From a virus: a DNA stretch of 21,899 nt. Of the stretch, positions 4,125 to 19,449 are shown piece after piece. Numbering within the stretch: position 1 is the first letter of the stretch; every line of letters starts with the position of its first letter. The stretch spans positions 1-21,899 of the IMG/VR virus record IMGVR_UViG_3300043446_004769. One strand, written 5' to 3'. Position numbers and translations under genes: made by a program. The notes under the pieces were generated by a model. That model searched no databases. It was not told where the DNA came from and saw only the letters and a program-made list of their open reading frames with translations.

Positions 4125-4146
4125 TCAGAAACACGCCCCCTGCCAT

Positions 4147-4576: not shown

Positions 4577-4616
4577 CTCTATCTTCCTTTCAGTAGTAGA
4601 CAGTAGAGACGTTTAC

Positions 4617-4647: not shown

Positions 4648-4680
4648 CCATGGTTGCTGGATTCTCTGATTTCTGCACGC

Positions 4681-4713: not shown

Positions 4714-4720
4714 CCGGGAG

Positions 4721-4792: not shown

Positions 4793-4798
4793 CTTTCT

Positions 4799-4815
4799 TT
4801 GACGGTGGTGGAAGA
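4799..4815 (+). repeat. Motif-B copy 3 (TTGACGGTGGTGGAAGA)
   Basis: Exact consensus copy ending 3 bases before the TTTGAGA of the promoter that drives the ParA-like gene, and 6 bases after the last DnaA box. Confidence 0.8.
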
Positions 4816-4818
4816 CAG

Positions 4819-4848
4819 TTTGAGATAGGTTGCACGGGGGGATATGAT
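4819..4848 (+). promoter_or_regulatory. Motif-A promoter for the ParA-like gene
   Basis: TTTGAGATAGGTTGCACG at 4819-4836; TTGAGA at 4820-4825, 17-base spacer, -10 TATGAT at 4843-4848; predicted start near 4855. First rightward promoter after the DnaA boxes. Confidence 0.85.
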
Positions 4849-4887
4849 GTTCTCGTTCAAAACTACTAACACCTGAAAGGGGTGCGG

Positions 4888-5445
4888 ATGAACAGAGTCC
4901 ATGTTTTCCAGTCAGTAAAGGGCGGGGTGGGTTGTACCACTTCTGCAGTGGGCTTTGCCTGCTGGCTCGCCAACGAGAAGCGTGAGACAGTCACTCTCAT
5001 TGCTCTGAACGACGACGCTATGTCGGTCCTGACAGATAGGAGCCACGTGCGAATCATCGTCGCAGAAGGCTCACAAAAGACCAACTACCGCATTGCGGAA
5101 ATGGCTAATGAGACCCACGGCTACGTCGTCGTGGACGCAGGGACAACCCTTGACCCATTCAACGATGACAACGAGGACTGGGTGCGCCACTTGGTGACGC
5201 AGAACCACTACCTCGCTCTTCGTCGCTCCACGCTCCACAATGACTATGAGAACTACGACGATTTCGTGGCAGTCATGGACAAGGAAGGCTCGCTCTCGGT
5301 CGGGGACTGCAAGATGGTCTTGAGACTTCCGATGTTCTTCTCGGTGCAACGAGACCCAGCCCTCGCTCGCTCCATTGACGCAGGGCTCTTCCCCCGAGAC
5401 TTGGGGCAAGTGAGCCTTTTCCAGCCCGAACAGGTCTCAGCCTGA
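4888..5445 (+). CDS. ParA/MinD-like P-loop protein with altered P-loop, 185 aa
   Basis: The N-terminus has the deviant Walker A pattern of ParA/MinD ATPases, KGGVGCTT at residues 11-18. The signature first Lys (K11) is kept, but the second, phosphate-binding Lys is Cys16. A hydrophobic strand ending in Asp (YVVVDAGTT, D83) matches the Walker A'/switch position. ParA-family proteins bind ATP, dimerise and move plasmid or prophage DNA with a ParB partner. This one is short (the family is usually 200-300 aa) and no ParB is seen, so it may be a degenerate or repurposed member. ATG 4888 is preferred to GTG 4882 because GAAAGGGG (4875-4882) then has correct spacing. It lies next to the DnaA boxes. 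Confidence 0.75.
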   Translation: MNRVHVFQSVKGGVGCTTSAVGFACWLANEKRETVTLIALNDDAMSVLTDRSHVRIIVAEGSQKTNYRIAEMANETHGYVVVDAGTTLDPFNDDNEDWVRHLVTQNHYLALRRSTLHNDYENYDDFVAVMDKEGSLSVGDCKMVLRLPMFFSVQRDPALARSIDAGLFPRDLGQVSLFQPEQVSA

Positions 5446-5451
5446 CAGAAC

Positions 5452-5530
5452 GGGTGGGGGAGTGTGACCCCCACCCTTTCTGCTTTCCAGCAGCTAGAGC
5501 CCCGCGCCGCACCACAGGGGAACGGGGCTC
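5452..5530 (+). terminator. Intrinsic terminator plus GAGCCCCG hairpin
   Basis: GGGTGGGGG (5452-5460), loop of 7, CCCCCACCC (5468-5476), then TTTCT: a good rho-independent terminator just after the ParA-like gene. It is followed by GAGCCCCG (5497-5504) pairing with CGGGGCTC (5523-5530). Confidence 0.7.
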
Positions 5531-5551
5531 TACCGGCACCTTCGGGGCGAA

Positions 5552-5589
5552 GTTTGAGATTTGAGATAGGTTGCACGGGTTGGTAATAT
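5552..5589 (+). promoter_or_regulatory. Motif-A promoter for gene 5627-6097, with partial duplication
   Basis: TTGAGA at 5561-5566, 17-base spacer, -10 TAATAT at 5584-5589. A partial second copy of the motif start (TTTGAGAT at 5553-5560) lies directly upstream, possibly replication slippage or a half operator. Confidence 0.85.
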
Positions 5590-5626
5590 GTATCTCGTTC
5601 CAAACACCTACTACGAAAGGGAACAA

Positions 5627-6097
5627 ATGACCACATTGGAGATAGCCGAGAAGGTTGAGAACGTGATTCACCTTGCGTTCTCAATGAAGGGCGAGGCAGA
5701 AGGTTTTAACCTTGACCGAGCCATGCTCGTCGGTGTTAAGACTGACGGTGACAAGGTTGTAGATATCAACCCTGAAATCGCTAGCCACGGAGACGTTTAT
5801 CAGCTTCTTGACGACGAGGACAACTTTGCAAAGGTTGCGTCGTACAACGTCGTTGGACTCGTCACCTGCGGTTGGGCAGCACCCCTGAATAGCGACGGGG
5901 AACTTGACGGTCCTACGCCTGCGAGTCACCCACAACGTCGTCGTGTCCGTCTCATGGTTTGCGCCAGTCTTGACGGAATGGCAAGCGTTCTCCGCTTCCA
6001 AGACGAGTCGGACAACCCGATTAGCGACGGGGGACAGGCGACAGGACCGCTTGCGGAAGCCTTGCAGGACTTCCTGATTCGGTCGAAGAACCTCTGA
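5627..6097 (+). CDS. Hypothetical protein, 156 aa
   Basis: A mixed alpha/beta protein with hydrophobic strands YNVVGLVTCGWAAPL and RRVRLMVCASLDGMASVLRF and a helical C-terminus. It resembles conserved ORFans seen in actinobacteriophages, as I recall, but no function is known. The in-frame ATG at 5588 lies inside the promoter and is rejected. ATG 5627 follows the standard cassette leader CTACTACGAAAGGGAACAA, which provides the SD. It is a single-gene cassette ended by two hairpins. Confidence 0.8.
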   Translation: MTTLEIAEKVENVIHLAFSMKGEAEGFNLDRAMLVGVKTDGDKVVDINPEIASHGDVYQLLDDEDNFAKVASYNVVGLVTCGWAAPLNSDGELDGPTPASHPQRRRVRLMVCASLDGMASVLRFQDESDNPISDGGQATGPLAEALQDFLIRSKNL

Positions 6098-6106
6098 CGA
6101 GTCGGG

Positions 6107-6187
6107 GTGGGGTAGTTCCCGAAAGGGAACGCCTCACCCCACTTCTTCCGGTAGCCCCGTCAGGGCTTCCCGCACAGCGGGGCTTAC
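6107..6187 (+). terminator. Two hairpins after gene 5627-6097
   Basis: The outer stem GTGGGG (6107-6112) pairs with CCCCAC (6137-6142). The inner stem GTTCCC (6115-6120) pairs with GGGAAC (6125-6130) around a GAAA tetraloop. The GAGCCCC-type hairpin follows: TAGCCCCG (6152-6159) pairs with CGGGGCTTA (6178-6186, one bulge). Confidence 0.6.
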
Positions 6188-6206
6188 CTGGTCCGAAAAT
6201 TCGATT

Positions 6207-6236
6207 TTTGAGATAGGTTGCACGGACCTGTAAAGT
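6207..6236 (+). promoter_or_regulatory. Motif-A promoter for the 6269-7167 unit
   Basis: TTTGAGATAGGTTGCACG at 6207-6224; TTGAGA at 6208-6213, 17-base spacer, -10 TAAAGT at 6231-6236. The leader carries CTACTACGAAATGAAAGG. Confidence 0.85.
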
Positions 6237-6268
6237 GTTATGCAACTACTACGAAATGAAAGGTTGAC

Positions 6269-6730
6269 ATGTCCACACGAAGCATCATCGCCAAAGCCCA
6301 AGGCGACTCATGGGCAGGGCGTTACGCCCATTGGGATGGTTACCCATCTCATCAAGGCGCATCGATTTGGGAAATCGTTCAGCGAGACGGTTGGGAGCAA
6401 GCCTCTAAAACGTTCGTGGATGACCATTTCTACTGGTCAGTCGTGCGCCCGTTGCAGGCAAATGAAGCCCCCGAAGAGAGTCGATGGGAAGTCGTCGCAG
6501 GCTACGGAATTGCAGGAAACACGGAGCAAGCCGACCCCAGCGAGTGGTACACCCCCGAAAACTACAAGGATTCGTGGTGCGAGTTCATCTACGTAATCGC
6601 CAAGGCAGGCCTCATGGTCATTCGAATCTACGACGACAAGATTCTTGGATTCTTCCGCTGGGAAGACCCCGAACCGAATTGGGTGCAGGTCCAAAACACC
6701 CCCGTAGATGAAGAAATGGAAGTGGCGTGA
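6269..6730 (+). CDS. Hypothetical phage-type protein, 153 aa
   Basis: Begins MSTRSIIAKAQGDSWAGRYA, then HWDGYPSHQG. This opening is familiar to me from ORFans of phages of actinobacteria and other hosts, whose function is unknown. The protein is rich in Trp, Tyr and acidic residues, with no membrane segment. The ATG at 6269 follows GAAAGGTTGAC. It is the first of three genes in a unit: its stop overlaps the next start (TGATG at 6728-6732), so coupled translation is expected. Confidence 0.8.
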   Translation: MSTRSIIAKAQGDSWAGRYAHWDGYPSHQGASIWEIVQRDGWEQASKTFVDDHFYWSVVRPLQANEAPEESRWEVVAGYGIAGNTEQADPSEWYTPENYKDSWCEFIYVIAKAGLMVIRIYDDKILGFFRWEDPEPNWVQVQNTPVDEEMEVA

Positions 6731-6948
6731 TGAGAACGATGTCCCCCGAACGGGTCAAGGCAATGAGGGAGAACTTTGTCGGCAAGCGGATTCGACTTGT
6801 CTACACGTCAGACCCCTACACCGACCTAAAGTCAGGCGACGAGGGTGTCATCGACTTCATAGACGATACTGGCACGGTGTTTGCCAATTGGGACAAGGGT
6901 TCGGGTCTCGGCCTTGTCCATGGCGAAGACTCTTGGGAACTTGTGTGA
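6730..6948 (+). CDS. DUF4314-like protein, 72 aa
   Basis: Matches the pattern of DUF4314 as I know it: GKRIRLVYTSDPYTDLKSGDEGVIDFIDDTGTVFANWDKG, then LGLVHGEDSW. In this small beta-rich fold a DP-turn precedes a G-D-x-G-V strand and a W-D-x-G strand. The family is common in phages and mobile elements of Gram-positive bacteria; its function is not established. ATG 6730 overlaps the upstream stop and has GGAAG nearby; a GTG one codon earlier (6727) is a less likely start. Middle gene of a three-gene unit. Confidence 0.8.
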   Translation: MRTMSPERVKAMRENFVGKRIRLVYTSDPYTDLKSGDEGVIDFIDDTGTVFANWDKGSGLGLVHGEDSWELV

Positions 6949-6960
6949 GGGGGTGAAGAA

Positions 6961-7167
6961 ATGGAACAGATTGAACAAGTGGTAATTCCTCTAGACCAAG
7001 CACTAGTTGCAAAGGATTTGGTAGCAGAAATCCTCGAACAAATCGATGAGGTTGAGGAGCTTACGCACTCCCTCCTCCTTGATGTGATGGGCGTGTTGGG
7101 AGTGTCCTTCTACGCAGGTGAAGCAGCCTCTCTGGCGTTCATCGAAGATTTGACCCCTGCTAAGTAG
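6961..7167 (+). CDS. Hypothetical helical protein, 68 aa
   Basis: An acidic, almost entirely helical protein (EQVVIPLDQALVAKDLVAEILEQIDEVEELTHSLL...) with a hydrophobic C-terminal half. It is too polar overall for a clear membrane helix. No family recognised; a dimerising or partner-binding role is possible. The start is supported by GAGGGGGTGAAGAA directly upstream. Last gene of the three-gene unit, followed by two hairpins. Confidence 0.75.
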   Translation: MEQIEQVVIPLDQALVAKDLVAEILEQIDEVEELTHSLLLDVMGVLGVSFYAGEAASLAFIEDLTPAK

Positions 7168-7173
7168 TAGTAG

Positions 7174-7248
7174 CCGGTGAAGTTGGCCGATTTTTCGGCC
7201 TTCTTCATCCGGAAGAGCCCCGTTCGGGGCAGTGACACTGCGGGGCTC
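7174..7248 (+). terminator. Two hairpins after gene 6961-7167
   Basis: GGCCGA (7185-7190) pairs with CGGCC (7196-7200) across a T5 loop, extended by GAAG/CTTC and CCGG/CCGG to span 7174-7212. It is followed immediately by GAGCCCCG (7215-7222) pairing with CGGGGCTC (7241-7248). Confidence 0.6.
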
Positions 7249-7338
7249 CCCTGGCGGGTTCTTTGGGTTTCTCAGAAAATCGATTTTTCTGATGGCACAT
7301 TACGTTTTCGTGTCACACCCCCTTATCACCATGTCAAG

Positions 7339-7355
7339 GTGACGGTGGCGGAAGA
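7339..7355 (+). repeat. Motif-B copy 4 (GTGACGGTGGCGGAAGA)
   Basis: Copy with T-to-G at the first position and GGCGG in place of GGTGG. It ends 5 bases before the TTTGAGA of the next promoter, the same arrangement as copies 3 and 5. Confidence 0.75.
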
Positions 7356-7360
7356 ACGAC

Positions 7361-7390
7361 TTTGAGATAGGTTGCACGCCCCAGTATGCT
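7361..7390 (+). promoter_or_regulatory. Motif-A promoter for the 7418-8573 unit
   Basis: TTTGAGATAGGTTGCACG at 7361-7378; TTGAGA at 7362-7367, 17-base spacer, -10 TATGCT at 7385-7390. The leader carries CTACTACGAAAGGG. Confidence 0.85.
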
Positions 7391-7417
7391 GTCTACAACT
7401 ACTACGAAAGGGTTGTA

Positions 7418-8074
7418 ATGCCGAACTGGACGAATACACGGATGGCTGTTTCTGGAACCGAAGAAGATGTAAAGGACTTCATCTCCAAGATTCTGGTAGA
7501 GGAGAAAGAGGAACTCGTCGGAGCATTTCCGATGATGTCAAAGACGGAAATCAAGATTTTCGAGTCTTTCATTCCATGCCCGAAAGAACTCTTTGAGGTG
7601 ACCTCACCAGTCCGTGAGGAGCAGGCTGACCTCGCTAAGGACATGATGGACAAGTACGGAGCCACCGACTGGTATGCGTGGCAGTACGACAACTGGGGCG
7701 TCAAGTGGGGCGATTGCCACACGTTCGTTGATTCCGAACTGGAACAACTTGGCAACGGTCGTTGGGAGACTGTCTACGTCTACGACTTGCCGTGGGGAAG
7801 TGGTGAAGAGGCTCACCAGAAAATCTCTGCCATGTTCCCGAATCTGCGCTTTGGTTTTGACTACGACGAAGAGGCTGGGTTCTTTGCTGGCTGTCAGGTC
7901 ATGAAGGCTGGAGAGATTCTCTTCTCCGAATTCTTTGAGCCTTGCAACTACGACGTAGAGATGCCAGATGACGCAACGGAAGAGCAGATGAACGCATACT
8001 GGGAAACCCAGTCAGAATGGCGCAACAACAAGATGAGCAACATTGCCGAAGAATCTGACAAGGTGGGGTGGTGA
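7418..8074 (+). CDS. Api92/YubB-like (DUF1281-type) protein, 218 aa
   Basis: The N-terminus MPNWTNTRMAVSG and the internal signature YGATDWYAWQYDNWGVKWG (about residues 80-98) match the Api92/YubB ferredoxin-like family as I recall it. Such proteins are widespread on phages and conjugative plasmids; their molecular role is unknown. The C-terminal part is an acidic alpha/beta region ending in a charged helix. The ATG follows CTACTACGAAAGGGTTGTA. First gene of a three-gene unit whose members overlap by GTGA junctions. Confidence 0.8.
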   Translation: MPNWTNTRMAVSGTEEDVKDFISKILVEEKEELVGAFPMMSKTEIKIFESFIPCPKELFEVTSPVREEQADLAKDMMDKYGATDWYAWQYDNWGVKWGDCHTFVDSELEQLGNGRWETVYVYDLPWGSGEEAHQKISAMFPNLRFGFDYDEEAGFFAGCQVMKAGEILFSEFFEPCNYDVEMPDDATEEQMNAYWETQSEWRNNKMSNIAEESDKVGW

Positions 8075-8331
8075 TAGAGATGCCTCTGAACTTGAGAGAG
8101 ACGACTGCAGACTGGCTTGTCTGCCAGTGCGGAAACGAACCACACAAAGATGGCTTCTACGCTTGCATGAAAGATGGCACTCCAGTGGAACCAGTGTTGG
8201 ATGGACTCTGGGAAGGTAGCCTCTATGTCTGCGCTCAGTGTTATTCCATCTACGACGTAGACACATTCGAAGATACCGGTAAGGCAGTAGAAAGAGCTGT
8301 AAAAATGCTGAATGAAGGAGTTTCGTTGTGA
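8071..8331 (+). CDS. Small putative zinc-ribbon protein, 86 aa
   Basis: CQC (about residues 16-18) and CAQC (about 53-56) could form a four-Cys zinc ribbon; a lone Cys lies between them at YACMKD. No specific family recognised. The GTG at 8071 overlaps the previous stop (GTGA), with AAGG seven bases upstream. An in-frame ATG at 8080 is an alternative start. Middle gene of the 7418-8573 unit, so probably co-expressed with the Api92-like protein. Confidence 0.7.
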   Translation: MIEMPLNLRETTADWLVCQCGNEPHKDGFYACMKDGTPVEPVLDGLWEGSLYVCAQCYSIYDVDTFEDTGKAVERAVKMLNEGVSL

Positions 8332-8573
8332 AGGTCAAGACAGTGATTGAGATGCTCCAGAAACTCAACCCAGACGAAGAAATCATCGTTGATTGGTGGG
8401 AGCGTTCCATGTTCAGTCGTGTATGGGACGAGGACTCCTCTGACTTGCCAAACGAATCTAAGTGGGCAGAGGTCGTCAAAGAGTGGGACGAGTATGAAGA
8501 GAACCACATGACTGAAGAAATCTGGGATTGGGTCCATGATGGTCTTCTCGAAAAGGGCGCATATAACGACTGA
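8328..8573 (+). CDS. Hypothetical acidic protein, 81 aa
   Basis: The opening KVKTVIEMLQKLNPDEEIIVDWW resembles a common small phage/plasmid ORF with a helix followed by a 'D-x-E-I-x-V' strand; no function is known for it. The rest is strongly acidic and Trp-rich. GTG at 8328 overlaps the previous stop (GTGA), with GAAGGAG about 8-14 bases upstream. Its stop abuts the next motif-A promoter, leaving no room for a boundary hairpin. Confidence 0.75.
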   Translation: MKVKTVIEMLQKLNPDEEIIVDWWERSMFSRVWDEDSSDLPNESKWAEVVKEWDEYEENHMTEEIWDWVHDGLLEKGAYND

Positions 8574-8576
8574 CTT

Positions 8577-8606
8577 TTTGAGATAGGTTGCACGACTCTG
8601 TACACT
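8577..8606 (+). promoter_or_regulatory. Motif-A promoter for the 8636-9367 unit
   Basis: TTTGAGATAGGTTGCACG at 8577-8594; TTGAGA at 8578-8583, 17-base spacer, -10 TACACT at 8601-8606. It starts 4 bases past the stop of gene 8328-8573. Confidence 0.85.
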
Positions 8607-8635
8607 GAATTACATCTACTAGGAAAGGGAATCCC

Positions 8636-8800
8636 GTGAAAGAAATCATTGTCAAACTGTCAGTTCCAGACGAACTGGACCCCTACGACGTTCTCAACAA
8701 CATGATTGACGACTTCTACTACAGCAACAAGTCGACAGAGGACTACGGTCCCCATCTCGAAAACATCTTCATTCAGGTTCAGGAGGAAGCGAATGGCTGA
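8636..8800 (+). CDS. Hypothetical small protein, 54 aa
   Basis: A GTG-started acidic protein (VKEIIVKLSVPDELDPYDVLNN...). A short N-terminal strand is followed by a helix and a second strand (NIFIQVQEE). No family recognised. The start follows the cassette leader CTACTAGGAAAGGGAATCCC, which supplies the SD. First gene of a three-gene unit; its 3' end overlaps the next gene by 8 bases and carries that gene's SD (AGGAGGAA). Confidence 0.7.
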   Translation: MKEIIVKLSVPDELDPYDVLNNMIDDFYYSNKSTEDYGPHLENIFIQVQEEANG

Positions 8801-9131
8801 GTCGATAGAAGAGAACATTCAGGAAGTTCTTGACGACCTATTCCATTGCCTCTCATCGGTAGTTCACTATGCAAAAGGCATGATGGATTCGATGCTTTCT
8901 CATTCATACAGTCTCGAGAACCTTGATGGCGACATAGATTTCTGGGAATCTACTGGAGACATTTTGTCGTGCCTTGAGGACTTGAGGGACATGCGACAGA
9001 AAGCACGTGCGGACGTGAGTGAACTTCCCACCACAGAAATGCCAATCATCAGTGGGACAACGTTCAGTCATGACGACGTAGACGTTTGGTCTCACTACTC
9101 AACTGTGAAAATTCGAAGGAGCGACAAGTGA
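8793..9131 (+). CDS. Hypothetical helical protein, 112 aa
   Basis: Mostly helical and acidic (ESIEENIQEVLDDLFHCLSSVVHYAKGMMD..., later CLEDLRDMRQKARADVSEL), with a short mixed C-terminus. No family recognised. ATG 8793 has AGGAGGAAGCGA immediately upstream, the best SD of this unit; the longer open frame from 8706 overlaps gene 8636-8800 and is rejected. Middle gene of the unit. Confidence 0.75.
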   Translation: MAESIEENIQEVLDDLFHCLSSVVHYAKGMMDSMLSHSYSLENLDGDIDFWESTGDILSCLEDLRDMRQKARADVSELPTTEMPIISGTTFSHDDVDVWSHYSTVKIRRSDK

Positions 9132-9367
9132 CGACAAAAATGAGTTTGCAGGAAATTGCCAACATTCTGGAGGAGAACTATTTCGTTCTGGGCGTCACAG
9201 GCTCCGATGCAATTGTCAACATCTACGACGAGATGGATGCTGGGTATTTCGACAACCAGATTGTGGAGTGGGGCATCACAATGTCTGACCTATTCAGGGC
9301 AGTCGCCATCATGCGTCAGTCCTTGACGCGGCGCGGTCTTCTCAGAATGACAAACATTCTTCCCTAG
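9128..9367 (+). CDS. Hypothetical protein, 79 aa
   Basis: Starts by GTGA overlap with the previous stop, with AAGGAG six bases upstream; ATG 9140 is an alternative start. It reads as an alpha/beta protein (MSLQEIANILEENYFVLGVTGSDAIVNIYDEMD...) with a helical end. No family recognised. Last gene of the unit. Read-through of its TAG would continue into a short hydrophobic segment (codons 9434-9484), probably fortuitous. Confidence 0.7.
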   Translation: MTTKMSLQEIANILEENYFVLGVTGSDAIVNIYDEMDAGYFDNQIVEWGITMSDLFRAVAIMRQSLTRRGLLRMTNILP

Positions 9368-9376
9368 TCAGCTCCG

Positions 9377-9409
9377 GAGCCCCGCTGCGCGGGGAGGCCG
9401 GCGGGGCTC
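9377..9409 (+). terminator. GAGCCCCG hairpin after gene 9128-9367
   Basis: GAGCCCCG (9377-9384) pairs with CGGGGCTC (9402-9409); an internal CGCTGCGCGGGG tract may form alternative pairings. Confidence 0.5.
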
Positions 9410-9498
9410 GCCGCCAGAACTGTTGCGTCCGCAATGATTGCGGCCTCAACAATTGCGCTCGCACTCATTGTGTGGCACAAGCGTTAGGCCGACCTAAC

Positions 9499-9515
9499 AT
9501 CACGGTGGTGGAAGA
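9499..9515 (+). repeat. Motif-B copy 5 (ATCACGGTGGTGGAAGA)
   Basis: Copy with a changed 5' end (ATCACGG). It ends 3 bases before the TTTGAGA of the promoter at 9519. Confidence 0.7.
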
Positions 9516-9518
9516 GAC

Positions 9519-9548
9519 TTTGAGATAGATTGCACGACCCGATAGAGT
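9519..9548 (+). promoter_or_regulatory. Motif-A promoter (variant) for gene 9580-10083
   Basis: TTTGAGATAGATTGCACG at 9519-9536 (one change in the spacer). TTGAGA at 9520-9525, 17-base spacer, -10 TAGAGT at 9543-9548, one of the weaker -10s. Confidence 0.8.
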
Positions 9549-9579
9549 GATACTGATACATAGCGAAAGGGGGCACTGA

Positions 9580-10083
9580 GTGCCTAGTACAACAATCACA
9601 ACAGACAGCATCAAGATTGAGATGCGAGATAGGTGGGGGCGAGCCTCTGCCACCCACGGAGACGTTTTCTCCGTTCCGAAGGAAGAGCGTTTTGCTCTGT
9701 CCGAGTACGAGCGAGCAATGCACGTCTTGCTCGTTTGGCATAACGAAGGTTCCAAGGGAAGCCCATTGCGCACTCTCCGTGCATACGGTGTCAATGAGGC
9801 CACGATTGTCGAAGTGGTCTCAGACTGGTGCGACATGAACATCACCGAGGAAGAAGTCGCTGAACTCAAGGCCGAGAAGCGAGCAGACAAGTACGACGCA
9901 TTCATCGACTGGACGAAGGACAAGCTTTTCGAGCAGTACACCACCGAAGCACTGGTCGAAGTGGCCGGATTCTCCTACCCCACCGTTCTCAAGTTTCTCC
10001 AAGACTCTCCGCACTTCCGTAAGGTCAAGAAGGGCATATGGGAAATCCGTGACCCGAAGGCCGACAGAGAGGCTGAGAAGTAG
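9580..10083 (+). CDS. Hypothetical protein with possible C-terminal HTH, 167 aa
   Basis: No family recognised for the whole protein. Residues about 120-150 (LFEQYTTEALVEVAGFSYPTVLKFLQDSPHFRKVKKGIWEI) look like a helix-turn-helix followed by a wing, suggesting DNA binding. The middle is helical and charged (EEEVAELKAEKRADKYDAFIDW). GTG 9580 follows GCGAAAGGGGGCACTGA. It is a single-gene cassette and the last DNA-binding candidate inside the motif-A array, so it is one candidate for the array's regulator, without direct evidence. Confidence 0.75.
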   Translation: MPSTTITTDSIKIEMRDRWGRASATHGDVFSVPKEERFALSEYERAMHVLLVWHNEGSKGSPLRTLRAYGVNEATIVEVVSDWCDMNITEEEVAELKAEKRADKYDAFIDWTKDKLFEQYTTEALVEVAGFSYPTVLKFLQDSPHFRKVKKGIWEIRDPKADREAEK

Positions 10084-10084
10084 T

Positions 10085-10114
10085 TTTGAGATAGGTTGCA
10101 CGTACCTGTATATT
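10085..10114 (+). promoter_or_regulatory. Motif-A promoter for the AAA+/VWA unit
   Basis: TTTGAGATAGGTTGCACG at 10085-10102; TTGAGA at 10086-10091, 17-base spacer, -10 TATATT at 10109-10114. It begins directly after the stop codon of gene 9580-10083 and is the last motif-A copy in the window. Confidence 0.85.
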
Positions 10115-10157
10115 GAATCTCGTATTAACCACCTAGCCCGTGAAAGGGGCAAATGAA

Positions 10158-10883
10158 ATGACCAACCAATCCACATCCACCCTTCCTGAGTGCTGGCAGG
10201 CACTTGAGGACTGTCTCAACAATGGCATCGACCGTGTCATCCTCTACGGTCCGTCAGGCATCGGTAAGACCTACGCTGGTCTCACCATGGGCAACGTTGA
10301 AGGCGGTGCTTACCGTCTCGTCTGCACCGAGGACATGACCAACTCCGAAGTAACTGGAGCATTCATGCCGAACGAGCGTGGCACGTTCACTTGGAACTAC
10401 GGCTCCGCTGTTAAAGCATGGGAAGGCAACGGTGTTGTCGGCGGTCGACTGATTGTCGATGAAGTCGACAAGGCTGGTGGCGACGTGTTCGCCACTCTGC
10501 TGGCAATGCTTGACTCTGCCGAATCGGCATCGTGGGAGAATCCTGAGAACGGACGCATCCACCGTCCCCGTCAGGGATTCTCTGCAATCATGACAACGAA
10601 CATTGAGAACATGGAAGAACTTCCCACCGCTCTCGCTGACCGTTTCCCGATTCGCATCCGCATCAACACTCCGCATCCGAACGCTCTGCTCCGCTTGTCT
10701 CCCGACTTGCGCAACTACGCAGTGCGCATGGCTGATGCAGGCGAGCGTCGCATCTCTCTGCGAGCATTCCTTGACTTTGACAAACTCCGCAAGGCACTTG
10801 GTGACAAGCGTTCCGCTGAACTCACGTTCGGCAAGCGAGCAGAGTCGATTCTTGACGCAATCGCAGTCGACAAGGTTTCGTGA
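10158..10883 (+). CDS. MoxR-type AAA+ ATPase, 241 aa
   Basis: Walker A GPSGIGKT (residues 31-38), Walker B LIVDE (98-102), a sensor-1-like MTTNIEN and an ALADRF arginine-finger segment mark a AAA+ ATPase of the MoxR type. MoxR ATPases remodel target proteins together with VWA-domain partners; the next gene encodes exactly such a partner and overlaps this one (TGATG). An in-frame GTG at 10140 is rejected because it contains the SD (GAAAGGGG, 10142-10149), whereas ATG 10158 has normal spacing. Expression is from the last motif-A promoter. Target unknown. Confidence 0.88.
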   Translation: MTNQSTSTLPECWQALEDCLNNGIDRVILYGPSGIGKTYAGLTMGNVEGGAYRLVCTEDMTNSEVTGAFMPNERGTFTWNYGSAVKAWEGNGVVGGRLIVDEVDKAGGDVFATLLAMLDSAESASWENPENGRIHRPRQGFSAIMTTNIENMEELPTALADRFPIRIRINTPHPNALLRLSPDLRNYAVRMADAGERRISLRAFLDFDKLRKALGDKRSAELTFGKRAESILDAIAVDKVS

Positions 10884-12373
10884 TGAACGGCATCATGGTC
10901 GAACCCGAAATGCTTGGTCGTAGCGACACGGAGCATGGTCGGTGGAACGTCGACACTTGCAACCCTCGTCGTGGCGAGCCTTACACCGACATTGTGGGCA
11001 GGGAAATGAAAGTACCTGCCCACGATACGGCTCTCGCTCGTTGCATTCGTGCGCATGAGATGATGCATGCCAAGGTCTCCCCTGCTGGAGACTGGAAGCA
11101 GTGGGTCGACCGCAAGTTTGCATCGAAGGAGTCGATGACTGTTGTCGAAGAACTGCGTGTCAACTTCCTGTGTCAGAAGGCTGGATTCGACGTGAAGGGC
11201 AACCTCATGGACGGTGGCGAGACCGCTGACGGAGAGCGTTGTGCTGGCACGAACGACTGGACGAGTGCAGTGCGCATGTCATTCGCAACCGCTGGCACTG
11301 CGTCGAACAAGGCCTTCCTCAATGGCGTTCGTCGTCACAATCGCAAGTGGGGAGAAATCCTTGCTGACATTTCCAAGCGAGCAGTGAAGGAAATGGAGAA
11401 GGCGTACAAGACTCGCACTCTCGCATCGACGGAAGTCGACAGGGGTAGTGGACTCTTCCCATTCGGTTTCTCTCACACCGAACGCATCGCAGAATGGGTC
11501 GACCGACTCTGCGCAACTCCACCGCAAGACGAAGAAGAAGAGTCGTCTGCAAGTGGCGAGGGCGAAGGAGAAGGCGAAGGTAATGGTGAGGGCGAGAAGA
11601 AGAGCAATGCAGAGCATGGTGGTAGGCACTCCAACAAGGGTGCGATGCCAAAGGTCGGCAGTGCTACTGGCAAGCCCTATCCGAAAATCACTCCGTCTGA
11701 AATGACTCTGCGCATTCCTGCATGGGGCAAACTCGTCGTTGAGAATTGTCCGATGCCGAAGCACACAAAGGGCAACATCGGAAAGAAGCGCATCGCATCG
11801 AACATGGGCAAGGCTCCACGTCGCATGCATCGACTTCTCACTGACCCTGAAAAGCGTGTGTTCGACAAGGTGACACGTGGAAACGGTGGCGTCGTAATCA
11901 TCGACGGTTCAGGTTCCATGTCATTCAACCACGACCAAATTCGTGCAATTGTTGAGAATGCACCAGGGGCAACGGTTGCTGTCTACACCGACAAAGACCA
12001 CTGCAAGGGCGCACCGAACATGTGGGTCGTCGCAGACAAGGGACGCATGGTTGCAGAACTTCCCGAATTCGGACACGGCAATGGTGTCGACTTCCCTGCA
12101 CTTGAGTGGGCAGTGGAGCATCGTCAACGTTCATCGTCTCCAATCATTTGGGTGACTGACGGGGGCGTGTGTCCACCAATGGGTGGTTACACCGATGCTC
12201 TCGCAATGCAGTGCATCATGTTCTGCAAGAAGAACAACATCATCGTTCTTCCGTATGTCGAAGAAGCAGTGCGTGAACTCAAGAAGATGAAGAGTGGCAA
12301 CAAGGGCAAGTCCCAGTGGCCCCATCAACTCAAGTGGGCGTACAAAGAAGCGACAGGACAGGAACTAGCATGA
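10883..12373 (+). CDS. VWA-domain protein with HEMMH zincin-like motif, 496 aa
   Basis: Residues 58-62 are HEMMH, an HExxH zinc motif, followed about 27 residues later by VVEELR, a plausible third-ligand region; this resembles the putative metallopeptidase part of CobT/DUF2201-type proteins. An acidic low-complexity Glu/Gly linker (about 216-245) separates it from a C-terminal VWA domain. That domain has the MIDAS sequence D341-x-S-x-S (IIDGSGSMS) and a later T425-D426 (WVTDGG). VWA proteins of this type work with MoxR ATPases, here encoded just upstream with overlapping stop and start. Function inferred: an ATP-driven chaperone or maturation/protease complex. Catalytic activity is not shown. 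Confidence 0.85.
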   Translation: MNGIMVEPEMLGRSDTEHGRWNVDTCNPRRGEPYTDIVGREMKVPAHDTALARCIRAHEMMHAKVSPAGDWKQWVDRKFASKESMTVVEELRVNFLCQKAGFDVKGNLMDGGETADGERCAGTNDWTSAVRMSFATAGTASNKAFLNGVRRHNRKWGEILADISKRAVKEMEKAYKTRTLASTEVDRGSGLFPFGFSHTERIAEWVDRLCATPPQDEEEESSASGEGEGEGEGNGEGEKKSNAEHGGRHSNKGAMPKVGSATGKPYPKITPSEMTLRIPAWGKLVVENCPMPKHTKGNIGKKRIASNMGKAPRRMHRLLTDPEKRVFDKVTRGNGGVVIIDGSGSMSFNHDQIRAIVENAPGATVAVYTDKDHCKGAPNMWVVADKGRMVAELPEFGHGNGVDFPALEWAVEHRQRSSSPIIWVTDGGVCPPMGGYTDALAMQCIMFCKKNNIIVLPYVEEAVRELKKMKSGNKGKSQWPHQLKWAYKEATGQELA

Positions 12374-12378
12374 CGTTC

Positions 12379-12542
12379 TGCTCCACCGTGAGTCCCTTTC
12401 CTCACGGTGGAGCACCACGTCAGACTCATCGGAGATTCCGGTGCTCTGACGTGACACCGCTGGGGTGACTATGGAGTTAGCACCTCAGCGGACTGTTCGT
12501 CATCGATGGTCATGCTTTGGTCATTTTGTGTGGCCATCGATG
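12379..12542 (+). other. Four consecutive stem-loops upstream of the K+ channel gene
   Basis: Stem 1: TGCTCCACCGTGAG (12379-12392) pairs perfectly with 12401-12414. Stem 2: CACGTCAGA (12416-12424) with TCTGACGTG (12445-12453), extended inside by CATCGGA/TCCGGTG. Stem 3: CCGCTGGGGTG (12457-12467) with CACCTCAGCGG (12481-12491, one G-U). Stem 4: CATCGATGG (12501-12509) with CCATCGATG (12534-12542). This fills most of the 205-base gap after the VWA gene. It may be tandem terminators, a processed leader or a structured RNA; no U tract or known riboswitch core is visible. Confidence 0.65.
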
Positions 12543-12578
12543 GCGGACTTCATCCAAAGCTTTTGAAGAACGGAGAAA

Positions 12579-12923
12579 ATGAAAAAACGAATCATCATCG
12601 CGGTCGCATTTCTAATGACAATGTATGTTGCGTGTGCTCTCGTCTACTCAGCAACTGAAGGCAACTCATTCGGAGATTCACTGTGGTGGGCGTTCATGAC
12701 GTTCACAACTGTTGGTTACGGAGACCAGTACCCTCACACGATTGTCGGTAGGATTGCAGGCATCTCTCTTGTGTTCACTGCGGTCTTCATAGTTGTTCCT
12801 TGCATTACTGCAACAATCGCATCAATGTTCATTGTCGACAACGACGCATTCACACACGAAGAACAAGAAGAAGTGAAATACCTACTAAGAGAAATCAACA
12901 AGAAACTGGAGGACATCAAGTGA
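12579..12923 (+). CDS. Two-helix K+ channel (KcsA-like), 114 aa
   Basis: The order is TM1 (about residues 4-24), pore helix (31-43), selectivity filter TVGYGD (44-49) and TM2 (about 55-86), then a charged C-terminal helix (FTHEEQEEVKYLLREINKKL) that could form a tetramer bundle. TVGYGD is the diagnostic K+ filter, and the size is near the minimum for a functional channel, comparable to viral Kcv and to the KcsA pore. It should form a tetramer in the inner membrane and pass K+. The SD is ACGGAG upstream of the ATG. Its stop overlaps the next gene (GTGA). No standard promoter is evident beyond the structured leader. Confidence 0.9.
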   Translation: MKKRIIIAVAFLMTMYVACALVYSATEGNSFGDSLWWAFMTFTTVGYGDQYPHTIVGRIAGISLVFTAVFIVVPCITATIASMFIVDNDAFTHEEQEEVKYLLREINKKLEDIK

Positions 12924-13126
12924 GCGAAAATCCAAAATTCAATCACGCACTAACAATTGCATTCGCAGTACCTGATTCGAATCATGAGGACTGGCACGAA
13001 TGCGTCAAGAACGAAAAAGAGAAAGTCATCAACGCACTCATGGAGCGCATCAACAACATCCTTGCTGATGAGCAGGAGTACATGGAGTGCTTTGACGGCT
13101 TTGATTCATTCGAGGAGGAAAAGTGA
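12920..13126 (+). CDS. Hypothetical protein, 68 aa
   Basis: A GTG-started acidic protein with a helical C-terminal half (NEKEKVINALMERINNILADEQEYMECFDGF), no family recognised. It overlaps the channel stop by GTGA, with GGAGG about 10 bases upstream inside the channel gene, and overlaps the next start in the same way. Tight coupling to the channel suggests co-regulation, but nothing shows a functional link. Confidence 0.75.
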   Translation: MSENPKFNHALTIAFAVPDSNHEDWHECVKNEKEKVINALMERINNILADEQEYMECFDGFDSFEEEK

Positions 13127-13287
13127 AAAAGTCGAAAAACTCACGCACTGTTCTGGTGCCGGCCGTCAACGAGATTCCAATCTGGAGCGATACACCGCTC
13201 TACGAAGATTGGCTGGCTGCCCTAGGCAGGCCAGACGACGACGAAGCTTGGGCTGCCTATCAGGAGATGGTGAACAATGCTGACTGA
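13123..13287 (+). CDS. Hypothetical protein, 54 aa
   Basis: A 54-residue protein with a basic start (VKKSKNSRTVLVPA) and a Trp-rich acidic end (WLAALGRPDDDEAWAAYQEMVNN). GTG 13123 overlaps the previous stop (GTGA) and is preceded by GAGGAGGAAAA, a good SD. Its tail overlaps the next gene by 11 bases. No family recognised. Confidence 0.7.
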   Translation: MKKSKNSRTVLVPAVNEIPIWSDTPLYEDWLAALGRPDDDEAWAAYQEMVNNAD

Positions 13288-13582
13288 CGGCTCACGTAGA
13301 CCACGGCTCAAGGCGCTGGCCCGGGCTGGGTGGATGATTGAGGACGTGATTGTCGACTTGTACTGGTCGAACAAGGACGGCTGGGTCGACAGGCCTTCGG
13401 CCGACGTGTTCTCCGATTCAGAGAAGGAGACCCTGAACCTCCCCTACGGGGGACGGTGGGTCTCCGTTCAAGAGGTGCACGAGCGTCGCATCGAATCGAT
13501 GAACAATCACCCATCCAGTGCTTGGCCGCCGAGGGGGGCGGGGCTCACCATTGTCGAAACTAGCGAAGAGCTTGACGATTGA
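13277..13582 (+). CDS. Hypothetical protein, 101 aa
   Basis: An alpha/beta protein (LKALARAGWMIEDVIVDLYWSNKDGWVDRPSADVFSDSEKE...) with a loose Pro/Gly-rich C-terminus. No family recognised. CAGGAG lies upstream of the ATG within the previous gene. Last of four overlapping plus-strand genes beginning with the K+ channel. Its 3' end runs tail-to-tail into minus-strand gene 13560-13901 with a 23-base overlap. Confidence 0.7.
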   Translation: MLTDGSRRPRLKALARAGWMIEDVIVDLYWSNKDGWVDRPSADVFSDSEKETLNLPYGGRWVSVQEVHERRIESMNNHPSSAWPPRGAGLTIVETSEELDD

Positions 13583-13901
13583 ACGCGCGCTCGATGAGCC
13601 AGGCAAGCCGCGCGAAAATCACAATTTTCAGGGCGGCCCAGAAGCTCAGCGAACCCGTCGTAATTCCACGGTGGTGGAAGACATCGATTATCAGCATTAG
13701 CAAGCCGGCGGAGGTTGCAGAAATTAAAAGAACCGATACAATGCCGGCCAGGAAGAGAGATACCTTTTCCACTTTTACTAACGTTTCATCACTGATTGGC
13801 TGCGGCTGCGAGCGGTACCTTCCCATCGGTGGTGGAAGAGGAGTCCCTCGATGACGATTTCTCGGAAATCCTTGATAACCATTATTGCTGCGGCGCGCCA
13901 T
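13560..13901 (-). CDS. Membrane protein, 113 aa
   Basis: The first 35 residues are basic and Pro/Arg-rich (MARRSNNGYQGFPRNRHRG...). They are followed by two hydrophobic segments, about 48-75 (VSLFLAGIVSVLLISATSAG...) and about 84-100 (LSFWAALKIVIFARLAWLI), consistent with a small two-helix membrane protein. No family recognised. Its start overlaps the end of gene 13882-14265 by 20 bases, so the two form a minus-strand pair. Two motif-B copies lie within this coding region on the opposite strand, where they cannot serve the usual promoter-proximal role. Confidence 0.7.
   Translation of the reverse strand: MARRSNNGYQGFPRNRHRGTPLPPPMGRYRSQPQPISDETLVKVEKVSLFLAGIVSVLLISATSAGLLMLIIDVFHHRGITTGSLSFWAALKIVIFARLAWLIERAFNRQALR
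13664..13681 (+). repeat. Motif-B copy 6 (TTCCACGGTGGTGGAAGA)
   Basis: Lies inside minus-strand gene 13560-13901, antisense to it. The changed 5' end makes TTCCAC-GGTG-GTGGAA a small palindrome. Confidence 0.7.
13823..13839 (+). repeat. Motif-B copy 7 (CCATCGGTGGTGGAAGA)
   Basis: Second copy inside minus-strand gene 13560-13901, 159 bases from copy 6; the conserved part is CGGTGGTGGAAGA. Confidence 0.65.
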
Positions 13902-14265
13902 CAGAATTCTTCACAATCTGGTGAATCCGCTGCCGACTCAATTCGAACTCGTCCGCGATTTGGCGGAGCGAAGCTCCTCGTGCACGCATGTTCAGAATAT
14001 TTCCATTTCTTTGGGTATCCGTCGCGGGCCCTGGCCGAAGCGGGCCCCACTGCCATCCCTGGATTTCCTGGAGCATCCGGACGCGGTCTTCGGAAAGTTG
14101 GTTTTTTCGATAGCGCTGCCGCACGTATCCAACCCAGGCGCCCAGAGCTACTTCGGAATTTTCAAAAATTTCGATGTGGATGGCCGGCACGCCACAATGC
14201 CCTTCCCGCTCCGTAAATTGTTTTAGCGAATTTAAGTACATCTTGAATCTAGAGCTGTTGTCCAT
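13882..14265 (-). CDS. Helicase-associated-domain + HTH protein, 127 aa
   Basis: Residues about 9-74 form a helicase-associated (HA) domain: LNSLKQFTEREGHCGVP, then LGAWVGYVRQRYRKNQLSED, then LQEIQGWQWGP. These small nucleic-acid-binding modules are abundant in actinobacteria. Residues about 92-118 (MRARGASLRQIADEFELSRQRIHQIV) are a sigma-region-4-like helix-turn-helix. It is probably a DNA-binding regulator. A TATTAT hexamer at 14273-14278 (minus) precedes the ATG by 7 bases, suggesting a leaderless transcript, but no -35 is recognised. It overlaps the downstream membrane-protein gene. Confidence 0.82.
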   Translation of the reverse strand: MDNSSRFKMYLNSLKQFTEREGHCGVPAIHIEIFENSEVALGAWVGYVRQRYRKNQLSEDRVRMLQEIQGWQWGPLRPGPATDTQRNGNILNMRARGASLRQIADEFELSRQRIHQIVKNSDGAPQQ

Positions 14266-14333
14266 AGTCGCGATAATAATTCACTTTTATAGCTTGACCG
14301 GCAACTACTCAAAAAATGAATTTAATGAAATGT

Positions 14334-14362
14334 TTGACATCACACCAGGCGGCCGGTAAGCT
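14334..14362 (+). promoter_or_regulatory. Candidate sigma70-like promoter for gene 14390-14812
   Basis: TTGACA (14334-14339), 17-base spacer, TAAGCT (14357-14362); predicted start near 14369, about 21 bases before the ATG. It is unrelated to motif A in its spacer. Confidence 0.55.
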
Positions 14363-14389
14363 GCCGCAGATACCAGAAAGTTGCAATAA

Positions 14390-14812
14390 ATGGTGAACTA
14401 CAACCCATCCGGTGATGGCCCTGAATTTTCCATCGACTTCGAACAGCTGGCCCGGAATCTCGAAGATTTCAACAACTTCGACCCAGAGCTGCGGGAAAAT
14501 TTCCTGGCGGAGCTGCGGGCGCTTCAGGAAAATCCAGAAAATGTGGTTTTGCTGGGTACCGACGGAGAGTTCGCAGTGACAATTGTGCACGTCGACGCGG
14601 CGGCCATCGGTGGGGCGGACGGTCCGGTCCTGTTCCCAACTGCTAGTAAAAAGACAATTTTTGCTGCAGTCTCTCGTGAGCTGCTGCAGAAAAAAGTTTT
14701 TCAGCTCGAAGAGCTGCCCGAAGAAGATGGCAATCAGCTTTGGGAGGAGTTCATGGAAGAGCTCGTCGCACAGGTGACATCGATGCACAAGAAGAATCCG
14801 AAAACGTTCTAG
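14390..14812 (+). CDS. Hypothetical acidic protein, 140 aa
   Basis: An acidic protein with helical N-terminal third (EQLARNLEDFNNFDPELRENFLAELRAL), a central strand-rich part (VVLLGTDGEFAVTIVHVDAAAIGG) and a helical C-terminus. No family recognised. The SD is weak (AGAAAG). Codon use with many AATTTT-like stretches differs from region 1, suggesting separate origin. It ends just before the strong SD GAGGAGGT of the next gene. Confidence 0.7.
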   Translation: MVNYNPSGDGPEFSIDFEQLARNLEDFNNFDPELRENFLAELRALQENPENVVLLGTDGEFAVTIVHVDAAAIGGADGPVLFPTASKKTIFAAVSRELLQKKVFQLEELPEEDGNQLWEEFMEELVAQVTSMHKKNPKTF

Positions 14813-14828
14813 AGGAGGTTACGTTTAC

Positions 14829-14845
14829 ATGACGGTGGTGGAAGA
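14829..14845 (+). repeat. Motif-B copy 8 (ATGACGGTGGTGGAAGA)
   Basis: This copy forms the first codons of gene 14829-15380 (Met-Thr-Val-Val-Glu-Asp), so the DNA motif is part of a translated N-terminus. Confidence 0.7.
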
Positions 14846-15380
14846 CAAGCTGTTTTGGCATGAGGGCCCTGAGCCAGAGTGTTGGGATGACGCGGCACGC
14901 AGATGCGTTTATGCGATTTATTCCCTGGACCTGTACTCCATGGATAAGCTCGAAGACATTCGAACGCAGCTCGATTATTTGATAAAAGTCGGATTGAGCG
15001 CGGCCGGCCAGGACATCCTAAGTTCTGAAGAATTCGCAGAACTCTGGCGCATCCTCGGAGCGGTAGCTCGCAACACCGCGCGAAATTCAAATATTTTGGA
15101 TTATTCACTCGTGCGGCCCGGCGCGGTGGTGGATGAGCTCACGAGTGTGCTGATAAAAAAGCAAAAAGATTACGGCCACGACAACATCAACCGGTTTGGC
15201 CGCCTGGGACTCTTAGTCCGAGTACACGATAAAGTCGCGAGAATTGAAAACTTGATGCGGCGCGGCACAAGTCCGGAGAATGAATCACTTCGCGATAATT
15301 ACATGGATGTAATTAACTACTGCGCGATTGGGATGATGGTTGAGATGGACTGGTTCCTTCTCGAGCTCGCTTCTCAATAA
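14829..15380 (+). CDS. DUF1599/MazG-like protein, 183 aa
   Basis: Residues about 105-165 carry the pattern KKQKDYGHDN, F123-G124, then R-x2-DK-x2-R (R131, D134, K135, R138) and LRDNYMDVINY. This is characteristic, as I recall it, of the DUF1599 family of phage proteins related to MazG-like nucleotide pyrophosphohydrolases. Such all-helical proteins may act on non-canonical or host nucleotides; activity here is inferred. The N-terminal 100 residues are helical and unassigned. The SD GAGGAGGT lies about 10 bases upstream of an ATG that is itself part of a motif-B copy. Confidence 0.78.
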   Translation: MTVVEDKLFWHEGPEPECWDDAARRCVYAIYSLDLYSMDKLEDIRTQLDYLIKVGLSAAGQDILSSEEFAELWRILGAVARNTARNSNILDYSLVRPGAVVDELTSVLIKKQKDYGHDNINRFGRLGLLVRVHDKVARIENLMRRGTSPENESLRDNYMDVINYCAIGMMVEMDWFLLELASQ

Positions 15381-15398
15381 TTCAGAAAAATGGAAATT

Positions 15399-15426
15399 TT
15401 GCGCCGGCGCGGCGGCCGGTTAAAAT
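15399..15426 (+). promoter_or_regulatory. Candidate promoter for gene 15444-15758
   Basis: TTGCGC (15399-15404), 16-base GC-rich spacer, TAAAAT (15421-15426); predicted start near 15433. The -10 is good, the -35 moderate. Confidence 0.4.
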
Positions 15427-15443
15427 CACAGAAAAGAGAAGAA

Positions 15444-15758
15444 ATGAAAAAGTACGTAATTTTGATTATCGCGATGATTGTCCAGGTATTCGCAATCGGA
15501 ACCATCATCTGGTGGGCCACTGACGTTTTTGCCCTTTATTCCACAAATCAGTTCACCGGACGGATGCGCTCATTTGATGTGGATTATTGGAATGCTGTCG
15601 GTGGGGCCGCCGTCGTAACATTTGGCATTGGTATTGCCAATTACGTCAACAAGCGATTCGTGCAAAAGGCGCTTGATTCATGGGAAGAGGAAATCGAAGA
15701 AAGAACAGGATTGACGGATGACGAGCTCGTCCGCCGCGTCTTCGAACAACTTAAGTAA
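15444..15758 (+). CDS. Small membrane protein, 104 aa
   Basis: Two hydrophobic segments, about residues 3-25 (YVILIIAMIVQVFAIGTIIWW) and 50-68 (AVGGAAVVTFGIGIANYV), are followed by a charged cytoplasmic-looking tail (ALDSWEEEIEERTGLTDDEL). It is a predicted inner-membrane protein with no family recognised. An open frame begins at 15390, but ATG 15444 has AGAAAAGAGAAG upstream and a start that makes sense as the first residue before TM1. Followed by a long hairpin. Confidence 0.72.
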   Translation: MKKYVILIIAMIVQVFAIGTIIWWATDVFALYSTNQFTGRMRSFDVDYWNAVGGAAVVTFGIGIANYVNKRFVQKALDSWEEEIEERTGLTDDELVRRVFEQLK

Positions 15759-15773
15759 TCCAGAAAATTAAAA

Positions 15774-15834
15774 GAGCCCCAGGGAGCTGCGGCCGCGCCA
15801 CCTACAAACGCGTTCGCTGCTCTACCTGGGGCTC
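15774..15834 (+). terminator. Long hairpin after gene 15444-15758
   Basis: GAGCCCCAGG (15774-15783) pairs perfectly with CCTGGGGCTC (15825-15834), with further imperfect GAGC/GCTC pairing inside. The arms resemble the GAGCCCC family but extend differently. Confidence 0.6.
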
Positions 15835-15896
15835 AACCATTGAAGGGAAAGGGGGACCTTCTTTGGTGCTATCAACATTAGCAGAGCCCCGCCGCG

Positions 15897-15920
15897 TGAG
15901 ATTGCAACTATGCAATCTCA
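15897..15920. repeat. Perfect 10-bp palindrome (TGAGATTGCA)
   Basis: TGAGATTGCA (15897-15906), loop ACTA, TGCAATCTCA (15911-15920). Each arm resembles motif A with four bases of its spacer removed (TGAGATAGGTTGCA). It may be an operator or a hairpin; the similarity could be chance. Confidence 0.5.
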
Positions 15921-16012
15921 GAAGCCCCGCCGCGAACGGCGGCCACACACGCCAGTTCAGATAAATCTATCCGGACAGCTTCAGGAAATCCGAAGATTTC
16001 CATCGAAGTTAC

Positions 16013-16041
16013 TTGACGGTGGTGGAAGACACTGCTATTCT
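16013..16041 (+). promoter_or_regulatory. Motif-B copy 9 with -10: candidate promoter
   Basis: TTGACGGTGGTGGAAGA at 16013-16029. Here TTGACG can serve as -35, and TATTCT (16036-16041) follows after a 17-base spacer, predicting a start near 16048. It is the last motif-B copy and the only one with a convincing -10 at that distance. Confidence 0.55.
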
Positions 16042-18807: not shown

Positions 18808-19449
18808 TTATTGCTTTTTGATGACGCGTGGAGCAGTCTTCTCAGTTTCCTGTATGAATGTCTGGAACGGAGACCCAGTGTAAGAATCGTATTTTGCAGC
18901 TATTCCGATAGCTTTCAGACAGGCTTTTTTCGCCTGTTGTGGCGTGAGCGTCTTCTTCCCACCAGTGATGGCTTGGAGGGCTCCCAGAGCATAAGCCGAA
19001 CCTGTGCCCGTTGCATAGAGACCAGAAGCCTCCGACATCCATGCGTAATCGTTTTCGATAATGTAAATAGTCGCATTAACTACCGCCACAATTGTTGAGC
19101 CTTGTTCGGCTTTATGTTCACTGGAGTCTCTCTCTGGGGGTGAGTACCCATTGCTATCAAAGCACTCTATGAGAGAAGGTATGAATTTCTGGGTAATGAA
19201 GGCATCTAGCTTCCGGCCCTTCAGGGAGGGGGTTGGGCTAGGCGGCTGGAAAATGTGGTGCAAAATGTTGATTGCCCGCATATCGCCGGCGGCTCCAATG
19301 AGGAATTTCCCGTTTTGTGCCACTTTTGTGCATCCGGGCCCCAGTACAGATACCTGATATGTACTACCGTGGTCATCAATAGATGATATGCGCGTATCAA
19401 CTGATATGACAGCGAAATCCTCTCCTTGATAACCGACGATAGTAGTCAT
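18808..19449 (-). CDS. Proteasome beta/HslV-like Ntn hydrolase, 213 aa
   Basis: Starts M-T2-T3-I-V, so removal of Met would expose a catalytic Thr as in HslV. D18 falls at mature position 17, matching the family Asp17. GCTKVAQNGKFLIGAAGD (39-56) matches the Lys33/GxAG region with a short insertion, and TGTGSAYALGAL (147-158) matches the conserved GSG-x-x-A-L-x-A segment. Proteasome-like proteins occur in some phages; substrates are unknown. No ATPase partner is adjacent. The ATG overlaps the stop of the phosphoesterase gene (TAATG), so it is the last gene of a three-gene minus operon. Confidence 0.85.
   Translation of the reverse strand: MTTIVGYQGEDFAVISVDTRISSIDDHGSTYQVSVLGPGCTKVAQNGKFLIGAAGDMRAINILHHIFQPPSPTPSLKGRKLDAFITQKFIPSLIECFDSNGYSPPERDSSEHKAEQGSTIVAVVNATIYIIENDYAWMSEASGLYATGTGSAYALGALQAITGGKKTLTPQQAKKACLKAIGIAAKYDSYTGSPFQTFIQETEKTAPRVIKKQ

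Follow-up and report, generated by a model that had tools for sequence, protein, structure and literature searches.

K+ channel genes have been described in the phages Myrna, Phabba, ME3, ventosus and BillNye, in several vibriophages and in PLE, and any function of phage K+ channels was regarded as speculative in that description (Greiner et al. 2018, PMC6163359). In the open-licence papers that we searched, we found no report of a phage K+ channel being tested for function. As collected in PHROG 14690, the phages that carry such channels include those of Mycobacterium (Myrna, with the protein gp260, and Phabba), Streptomyces (BillNye and Wakanda) and Acinetobacter (ME3), and further those of Pseudomonas (ventosus and phiK7A1) and Aeromonas (the LAh phages). 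The channel Kcv comes from membrane-containing eukaryotic viruses (chlorella viruses) and has no cytosolic domain.

The stretch of DNA analyzed here, hereafter the window, is an IMG/VR virus record of 21,899 bases, and it contains an open reading frame that is, as judged from its sequence, a K+ channel gene of an actinophage and one more of the phage kind already described. What is new here is the genetics of this gene, i.e. an all-viral clade, varied genomic slots among syntenic relatives and an exact empty site.

The channel gene and its phage context

The channel gene starts with ATG and comprises 114 codons, exactly as it had been placed before, and it lies within a block of genes whose main landmarks are the following.

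12579..12923, + strand: two-TM K+ channel gene, 114 aa (open reading frame, Pfam, PHROG, AlphaFold2)
12572..12575, + strand: Shine-Dalgarno sequence GGAG of the channel, a few bases before the ATG (sequence)
12708..12725, + strand: selectivity filter T44-V-G-Y-G-D49 (sequence; G46, Y47, G48 and D49 invariant in 56 relatives)
10140..10883, + strand: MoxR-type AAA+ ATPase gene, a conserved marker of the block (Pfam)
10880..12373, + strand: gene of a VWA-like protein with a MIDAS-like DGSGSMS read by eye, a conserved marker of the block
12920..13126, + strand: next gene, whose GTG start overlaps the channel stop (GTGA) and which directly follows the VWA gene in channel-less relatives

The Pfam profile Ion_trans_2 (PF07885) matched the channel with 53.2 bits (cut-off 22.5), and the PHROG 14690 profile matched residues 9-112, near full length, with 118 bits (E 4.6e-34), so that the predicted family membership is far beyond chance. 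A TxGYGD filter and a pore helix were found between two TM helices, as expected of PF07885. The original prediction that TVGYGD with two flanking helices in 114 aa makes a K+ pore is therefore borne out by Ion_trans_2, by PHROG 14690 and by the AlphaFold2 model presented below. The label of PHROG 14690, "cAMP-dependent Kef-type K+ transporter", is misleading, because no Pfam match to a Kef antiporter or cyclic-nucleotide-binding domain was obtained in the 114-aa channel, which consists of the pore and a helix only. PADLOC did not match the channel to any known defence system.

When the channel was used as a tblastn query (E below 0.01), 46 phage records were retrieved, all with less than 60% identity and 33 of them covering at least 80% of the query. 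A profile-guided scan yielded 222 viral contigs with a relative of the channel, and contigs of 400-500 kb were among the best 80 of the 222; the gene family thus extends to dozens of phages or more and also to contigs of huge phages. The search for homologues among actinophages that had been proposed earlier returned relatives in Mycobacterium (Myrna, Phabba) and Streptomyces (BillNye, Wakanda) phages. The phage channels of PHROG 14690 show 33-36% identity to that of the window over the whole alignment, and they share with it the filter, the proline of the inner helix M2, a T-x-x-E-Q capping box and a C-terminal helix. As a separate observation, the Vibrio phage KVP40 contains a K+ channel reading frame near rIIAB (4001-4261 of locus L022), where its record has no annotated gene.

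The gene order of the window (MoxR ATPase, VWA-like protein, several small genes, WhiB, HslV-like peptidase and phosphoesterase) was also observed in the 50-kb contig G001 and in other viral contigs. Two larger records, G042 (140,645 bases) and G045 (145,204 bases), combine the syntenic block and the channel with an HK97-type major capsid protein (E 1e-47 and 3e-44, respectively), and G045 also encodes a terminase. In cultured phages, matches to the phosphoesterase were found almost only in actinophages, i.e. 81 of 136 records from Mycobacterium, 31 from Streptomyces and 13 from Microbacterium phages. Therefore, the window is part of the genome of a tailed phage, which would measure roughly 140 kb at the least and whose host most likely belongs to the Actinomycetota. 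The view that the channel belongs to a virus of prokaryotes is in agreement with the capsid genes of G042 and G045 and the terminase of G045, and the possibility that the contig is a bacterial chromosome, which would have undone that view, was checked against the same two syntenic, channel- and capsid-bearing records and did not hold. The MoxR-type ATPase and VWA-like pair (10140-12373) is kept throughout this group of uncultured phages, and so is a gene for an HslV/proteasome-like peptidase (18808-19449, - strand) that adjoins the phosphoesterase. The VWA-like protein gave no Pfam match and no tblastn match among 50,697 phage records.

Predicted fold and comparison with other channels

Two hydropathy peaks were observed in the channel, at residues about 4-25 and 55-85. 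A single-sequence AlphaFold2 model was poor (pLDDT 68) and was set aside for a model based on an alignment of 56 sequences, which reached a mean pLDDT of 94.8 and a pTM of 0.72 as a single chain, and in which helices were predicted at residues 2-27, 31-42, 55-84 and 93-113. The corresponding segments of the gene are as follows.

12582..12659, + strand: outer helix M1, residues 2-27 (AlphaFold2, hydropathy)
12669..12704, + strand: pore helix, residues 31-42 (AlphaFold2, alignment of 13 proteins)
12741..12830, + strand: inner helix M2, residues 55-84; its Pro74 does not vary within the family (AlphaFold2, alignment)
12852..12917, + strand: cytosolic C-terminal helix, with the capping box T92-x-x-E95-Q96 followed by heptad-spaced V99, L103, I106, L110 and I113 (AlphaFold2, alignment)

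The best PDB matches of the model in Foldseek were KcsA, MthK and NaK2K (probability 1.00), with a K+ channel from Listeria ranking lower. The TM scores against KcsA (1k4c) were 0.67/0.73, and the modest E-values (best 1.5e-3) are due to the shortness of the protein. By sequence, the closest solved structure was Listeria Lmo2059 (4h33, E 5e-13). The two-helix pore fold and the filter are common to the window channel and the pores of KcsA, MthK, NaK2K and Lmo2059, but unlike these proteins the window channel has no RCK or voltage-sensor domain. W36-W37 correspond to W67-W68 of KcsA, and a hand alignment places Met40 at the position of KcsA Glu71 and the M2 proline near KcsA Gly104.

The conserved, charged cytosolic helix of 21 residues after M2 had not been part of the two-helix description given originally. 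In a set of 13 phage proteins, mostly gathered by tblastn, the invariant positions were W37, the GYGD filter, P52, G57, P74, T92, E95 and Q96. In the set of 56 relatives, G46-D49, P74 and E95 did not vary and T92 and Q96 hardly varied, although some of these relatives had been collected by a pattern search that included the C-terminal motif, which is present by construction in those members. T-x-x-E is a classic helix-capping box. Beyond it, the hydrophobic residues V99, L103, I106, L110 and I113 follow each other at a 4-3-4-3 spacing, and the first three to four of these positions are aliphatic in most relatives. From this spacing we infer a coiled coil that may assemble or gate a tetramer. 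In two syntenic records the channel frame extends about 50 residues past this segment (L002, 7992-8498, and L003, 7989-8483).

Like Kcv, the channel is viral, short and composed of little more than the K+ pore, but it differs in the helix at residues 93-113, and the syntenic records carry hallmarks of tailed phages rather than of a membrane-containing algal virus. The comparison with Kcv made previously thus holds as an analogy and fails as kinship, and phage K+ channels had already been described in their own right (PMC6163359).

Mobility, selection and transcription signals

In a tree of 75 sequences and 125 columns, the window channel fell into a clade of eight members, all of them viral (support 100/99), which come from uncultured actinophages and stand apart from the described PHROG 14690 phage channels. 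The viral label requires at least six changes on starred branches of this tree, which implies several transfers of channels between cells and phages. Chromosomal channels of freshwater Actinomycetota (e.g. IMCC26077) and of Alphaproteobacteria are about 30-56% identical in their best segment and share the C-terminal motif, which was however the search pattern in their case. They are placed on branches separate from the window clade, and the IMCC26077 copy resides on a complete chromosome. Plasmid copies of the channel exist but are distant. A freshwater actinobacterial channel was also encountered nearly unchanged in L027, labeled Fonsibacter, and in L028, labeled Bifidobacterium breve, which are likely misbinned or misnamed MAGs.

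Unlike the described phage channels, that of the window clade occupies different slots in syntenic relatives, at least five of which are clearly distinct; numbers below refer to window genes.

Window: after the VWA gene
L002 and L003: between homologues of 16284 and 16644
L057: between homologues of 13882 and 14829
L056: after the homologue of 14390
L060/L061: between the homologue of 17817 and WhiB
L059: beside the homologue of 752
L004: upstream of the homologue of 16284

Four further relatives (L215-L218) show the empty site, in which the VWA gene and the hairpins described below are followed directly by the homologue of 12920. Compared with it, the window has the channel inserted between the hairpins and the 12920 gene, which it joins through the GTGA stop/start overlap. 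Of 86 loci retrieved with the phosphoesterase or the VWA gene as marker, a single one carried the channel (G001 again), and none of 38 marker-selected relative records searched over their whole length contained it; many of these records are fragments, so that the figure gives a trend rather than a count. Each of the seven records that had been retrieved with the channel as query contained it. These data are good evidence for a mobile accessory gene that has been gained or moved recurrently, and its sporadic presence indicates that most of these phages do not need it. The GC content of the channel (0.45) equals that of its downstream neighbor (0.45), the VWA gene being at 0.55, and composition therefore does not date the gain. 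Regarding a fixed partner, no gene recurs beside the channel across lineages, and the recurrent neighbors seen were accounted for by lineage synteny, antisense ORFs or neighbors on sphingomonad chromosomes.

Within the window clade, pairwise dN/dS was 0.13-0.19 for the pairs with unsaturated dS, which plainly points to purifying selection on the channel in its clade. All pairs that include the window were saturated in dS, with pN about 0.3 and pS above 0.75.

A promoter-like element, TTGAGA-N17-TANNNT, occurs in 15 copies on both strands at about 350-10,115, ahead of genes on both arms and pointing outward from about 4.7 kb. Its spacer includes a conserved stretch of 11 bases, TAGGTTGCACG, and the 15 copies can also be written TTTGAGATAGGTTGCACG-N6-TANNNT. 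They look like a phage promoter family, perhaps with a built-in operator. The features relevant to the channel are two.

10085..10114, + strand: last promoter-like copy upstream of the channel, ahead of the MoxR and VWA genes (TTGAGA-N17-TANNNT)
12374..12557, + strand: four tandem strong GC-rich hairpins in the interval between the VWA gene and the channel (z -11.4)

Because the channel lacks a separate promoter-like site on its strand and the last copy lies ahead of MoxR, it is probably read with the MoxR-VWA unit or from an unrecognized promoter. The hairpins matched no Rfam family. A role of this hairpin leader as a channel-specific regulator was discarded, since L214 and L134, which lack the channel, possess similar hairpin arrays whose stems differ and whose CTATGGAGTTAG loop is conserved; by this comparison, the hairpins are assigned to the phage block and not to the channel. 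A second repeat, TGACGGTGGTGGAAGA, is present in about eight copies at 519-16030 of the window, of which those at 4800, 7340 and 9500 closely precede the promoter-like element.

Possible roles in the infected cell

The explanation that we consider probable is that the window carries an accessory phage K+ channel of the KcsA/MthK type that controls the potential or the K+ of the host during infection. A single K+-selective pore, located in the inner membrane of the infected actinobacterial cell, would be assembled from four 114-aa subunits, and their C-terminal helices would make a four-stranded cytosolic coiled coil that would hold the tetramer and perhaps gate it. If made during infection, the channel would render the host membrane more conductive to K+, pull the potential toward E_K and let K+ move down its gradient, and the benefit to the phage would most likely be control of host membrane potential and K+ content, for example as a clamp that counters rival phages or depolarizing host defences.

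A K+-selective pore drives the membrane potential to E_K, which, according to the Nernst equation and with about 150-200 mM K+ inside, lies near -90 mV at 5 mM K+ outside and near -200 mV at 0.05 mM. At low external K+, E_K is thus more negative than the usual bacterial potential. The names of the actinobacterial channel relatives suggest that the host lives in fresh water and, if so, an open channel would hyperpolarize the cell and lose K+. Depolarization of the host, as first proposed for this channel, consequently does not follow. Tailed virions have no membrane, which makes a virion-borne channel assisting entry unlikely, and help in lysis is also unlikely, because no lysis gene is near and the relative G001 has a separate holin-like gene. 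Since entry and lysis fit poorly, an intracellular role remains, such as a potential clamp, the exclusion of rivals or counter-defence. The last two are finer versions of the preferred explanation that compete with each other.

One of them, which we regard as possible though rather unlikely, is superinfection exclusion, in which DNA delivery by a second phage would fail because an early channel had shifted the potential of the host. The accessory distribution and clean insertion of the channel fit a gene for competition, and there is a precedent in PMC6163359, which cites (its reference 16) the view that chlorella viruses exclude by depolarizing the host; however, the change in potential expected in low-K+ water is toward more negative values, and no immunity genes adjoin the channel. 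To the other version, counter-defence, we give the same tentative standing: the K+ conductance would clamp the membrane near E_K and guard it, so that depolarizing defences or premature holin triggering would fail. Phages are known to use the NAD+ salvage gene set against defences, and such genes (nadV, prs, NMN adenylyltransferase) lie near the channel in three other phage lineages, being found beside it in Myrna/Phabba and in two metagenomic records; moreover, rIIAB is located about 1.4 kb from the different K+ channel of KVP40. These neighbors are a weak hint, but no NAD-salvage gene was found in the records of the window clade and nadV is far from the channel in most other records, for which reason a link between channel and NAD+ salvage was rejected. 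A PF04095 gene was present somewhere in 20 of 35 channel-carrying records, as counted in channel carriers only. In L017, L018, L066 and L083, which belong to separate lineages, the channel lies a few kb from nadV with prs or an NMN adenylyltransferase-Nudix protein. The broader proposal that PHROG 14690 is a dedicated, recurrently captured counter-defence or exclusion tool, a potential-clamping and position-mobile single-gene cassette in actinophages, pseudomonad phages and huge phages, is unlikely to hold.

It is improbable that the phage protein, as a dominant-negative or modulatory subunit, co-assembles with a small K+ channel of the host and alters it without forming a pore of its own. Freshwater actinobacterial genomes do contain channels about 50% identical with the same C-terminal motif, and the coiled coil could allow mixing, but the phage protein retains a complete filter and pore, both under purifying selection, and the phage clade stands apart from the host-type clade. 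A lysis helper or holin-like pore is very improbable even for a small membrane protein with a pore, since holins form a large unselective pore and are encoded next to lysis genes, whereas this filter is of the K+-selective type, lysis neighbors are absent and G001 has its own holin-like gene. That the gene is a bacterial chromosomal one on a misassigned contig is scarcely credible, because although bacterial chromosomes do carry similar genes, the close relatives are all viral and the window is syntenic with capsid- and terminase-bearing records.

The window offers a natural experiment on the benefit of the gene, because closely similar gene blocks carry the channel at different slots or not at all. 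This benefit is testable by deletion in cultured relatives such as Myrna and BillNye, which would show whether phages steer the membrane potential of their hosts as chlorella viruses do.
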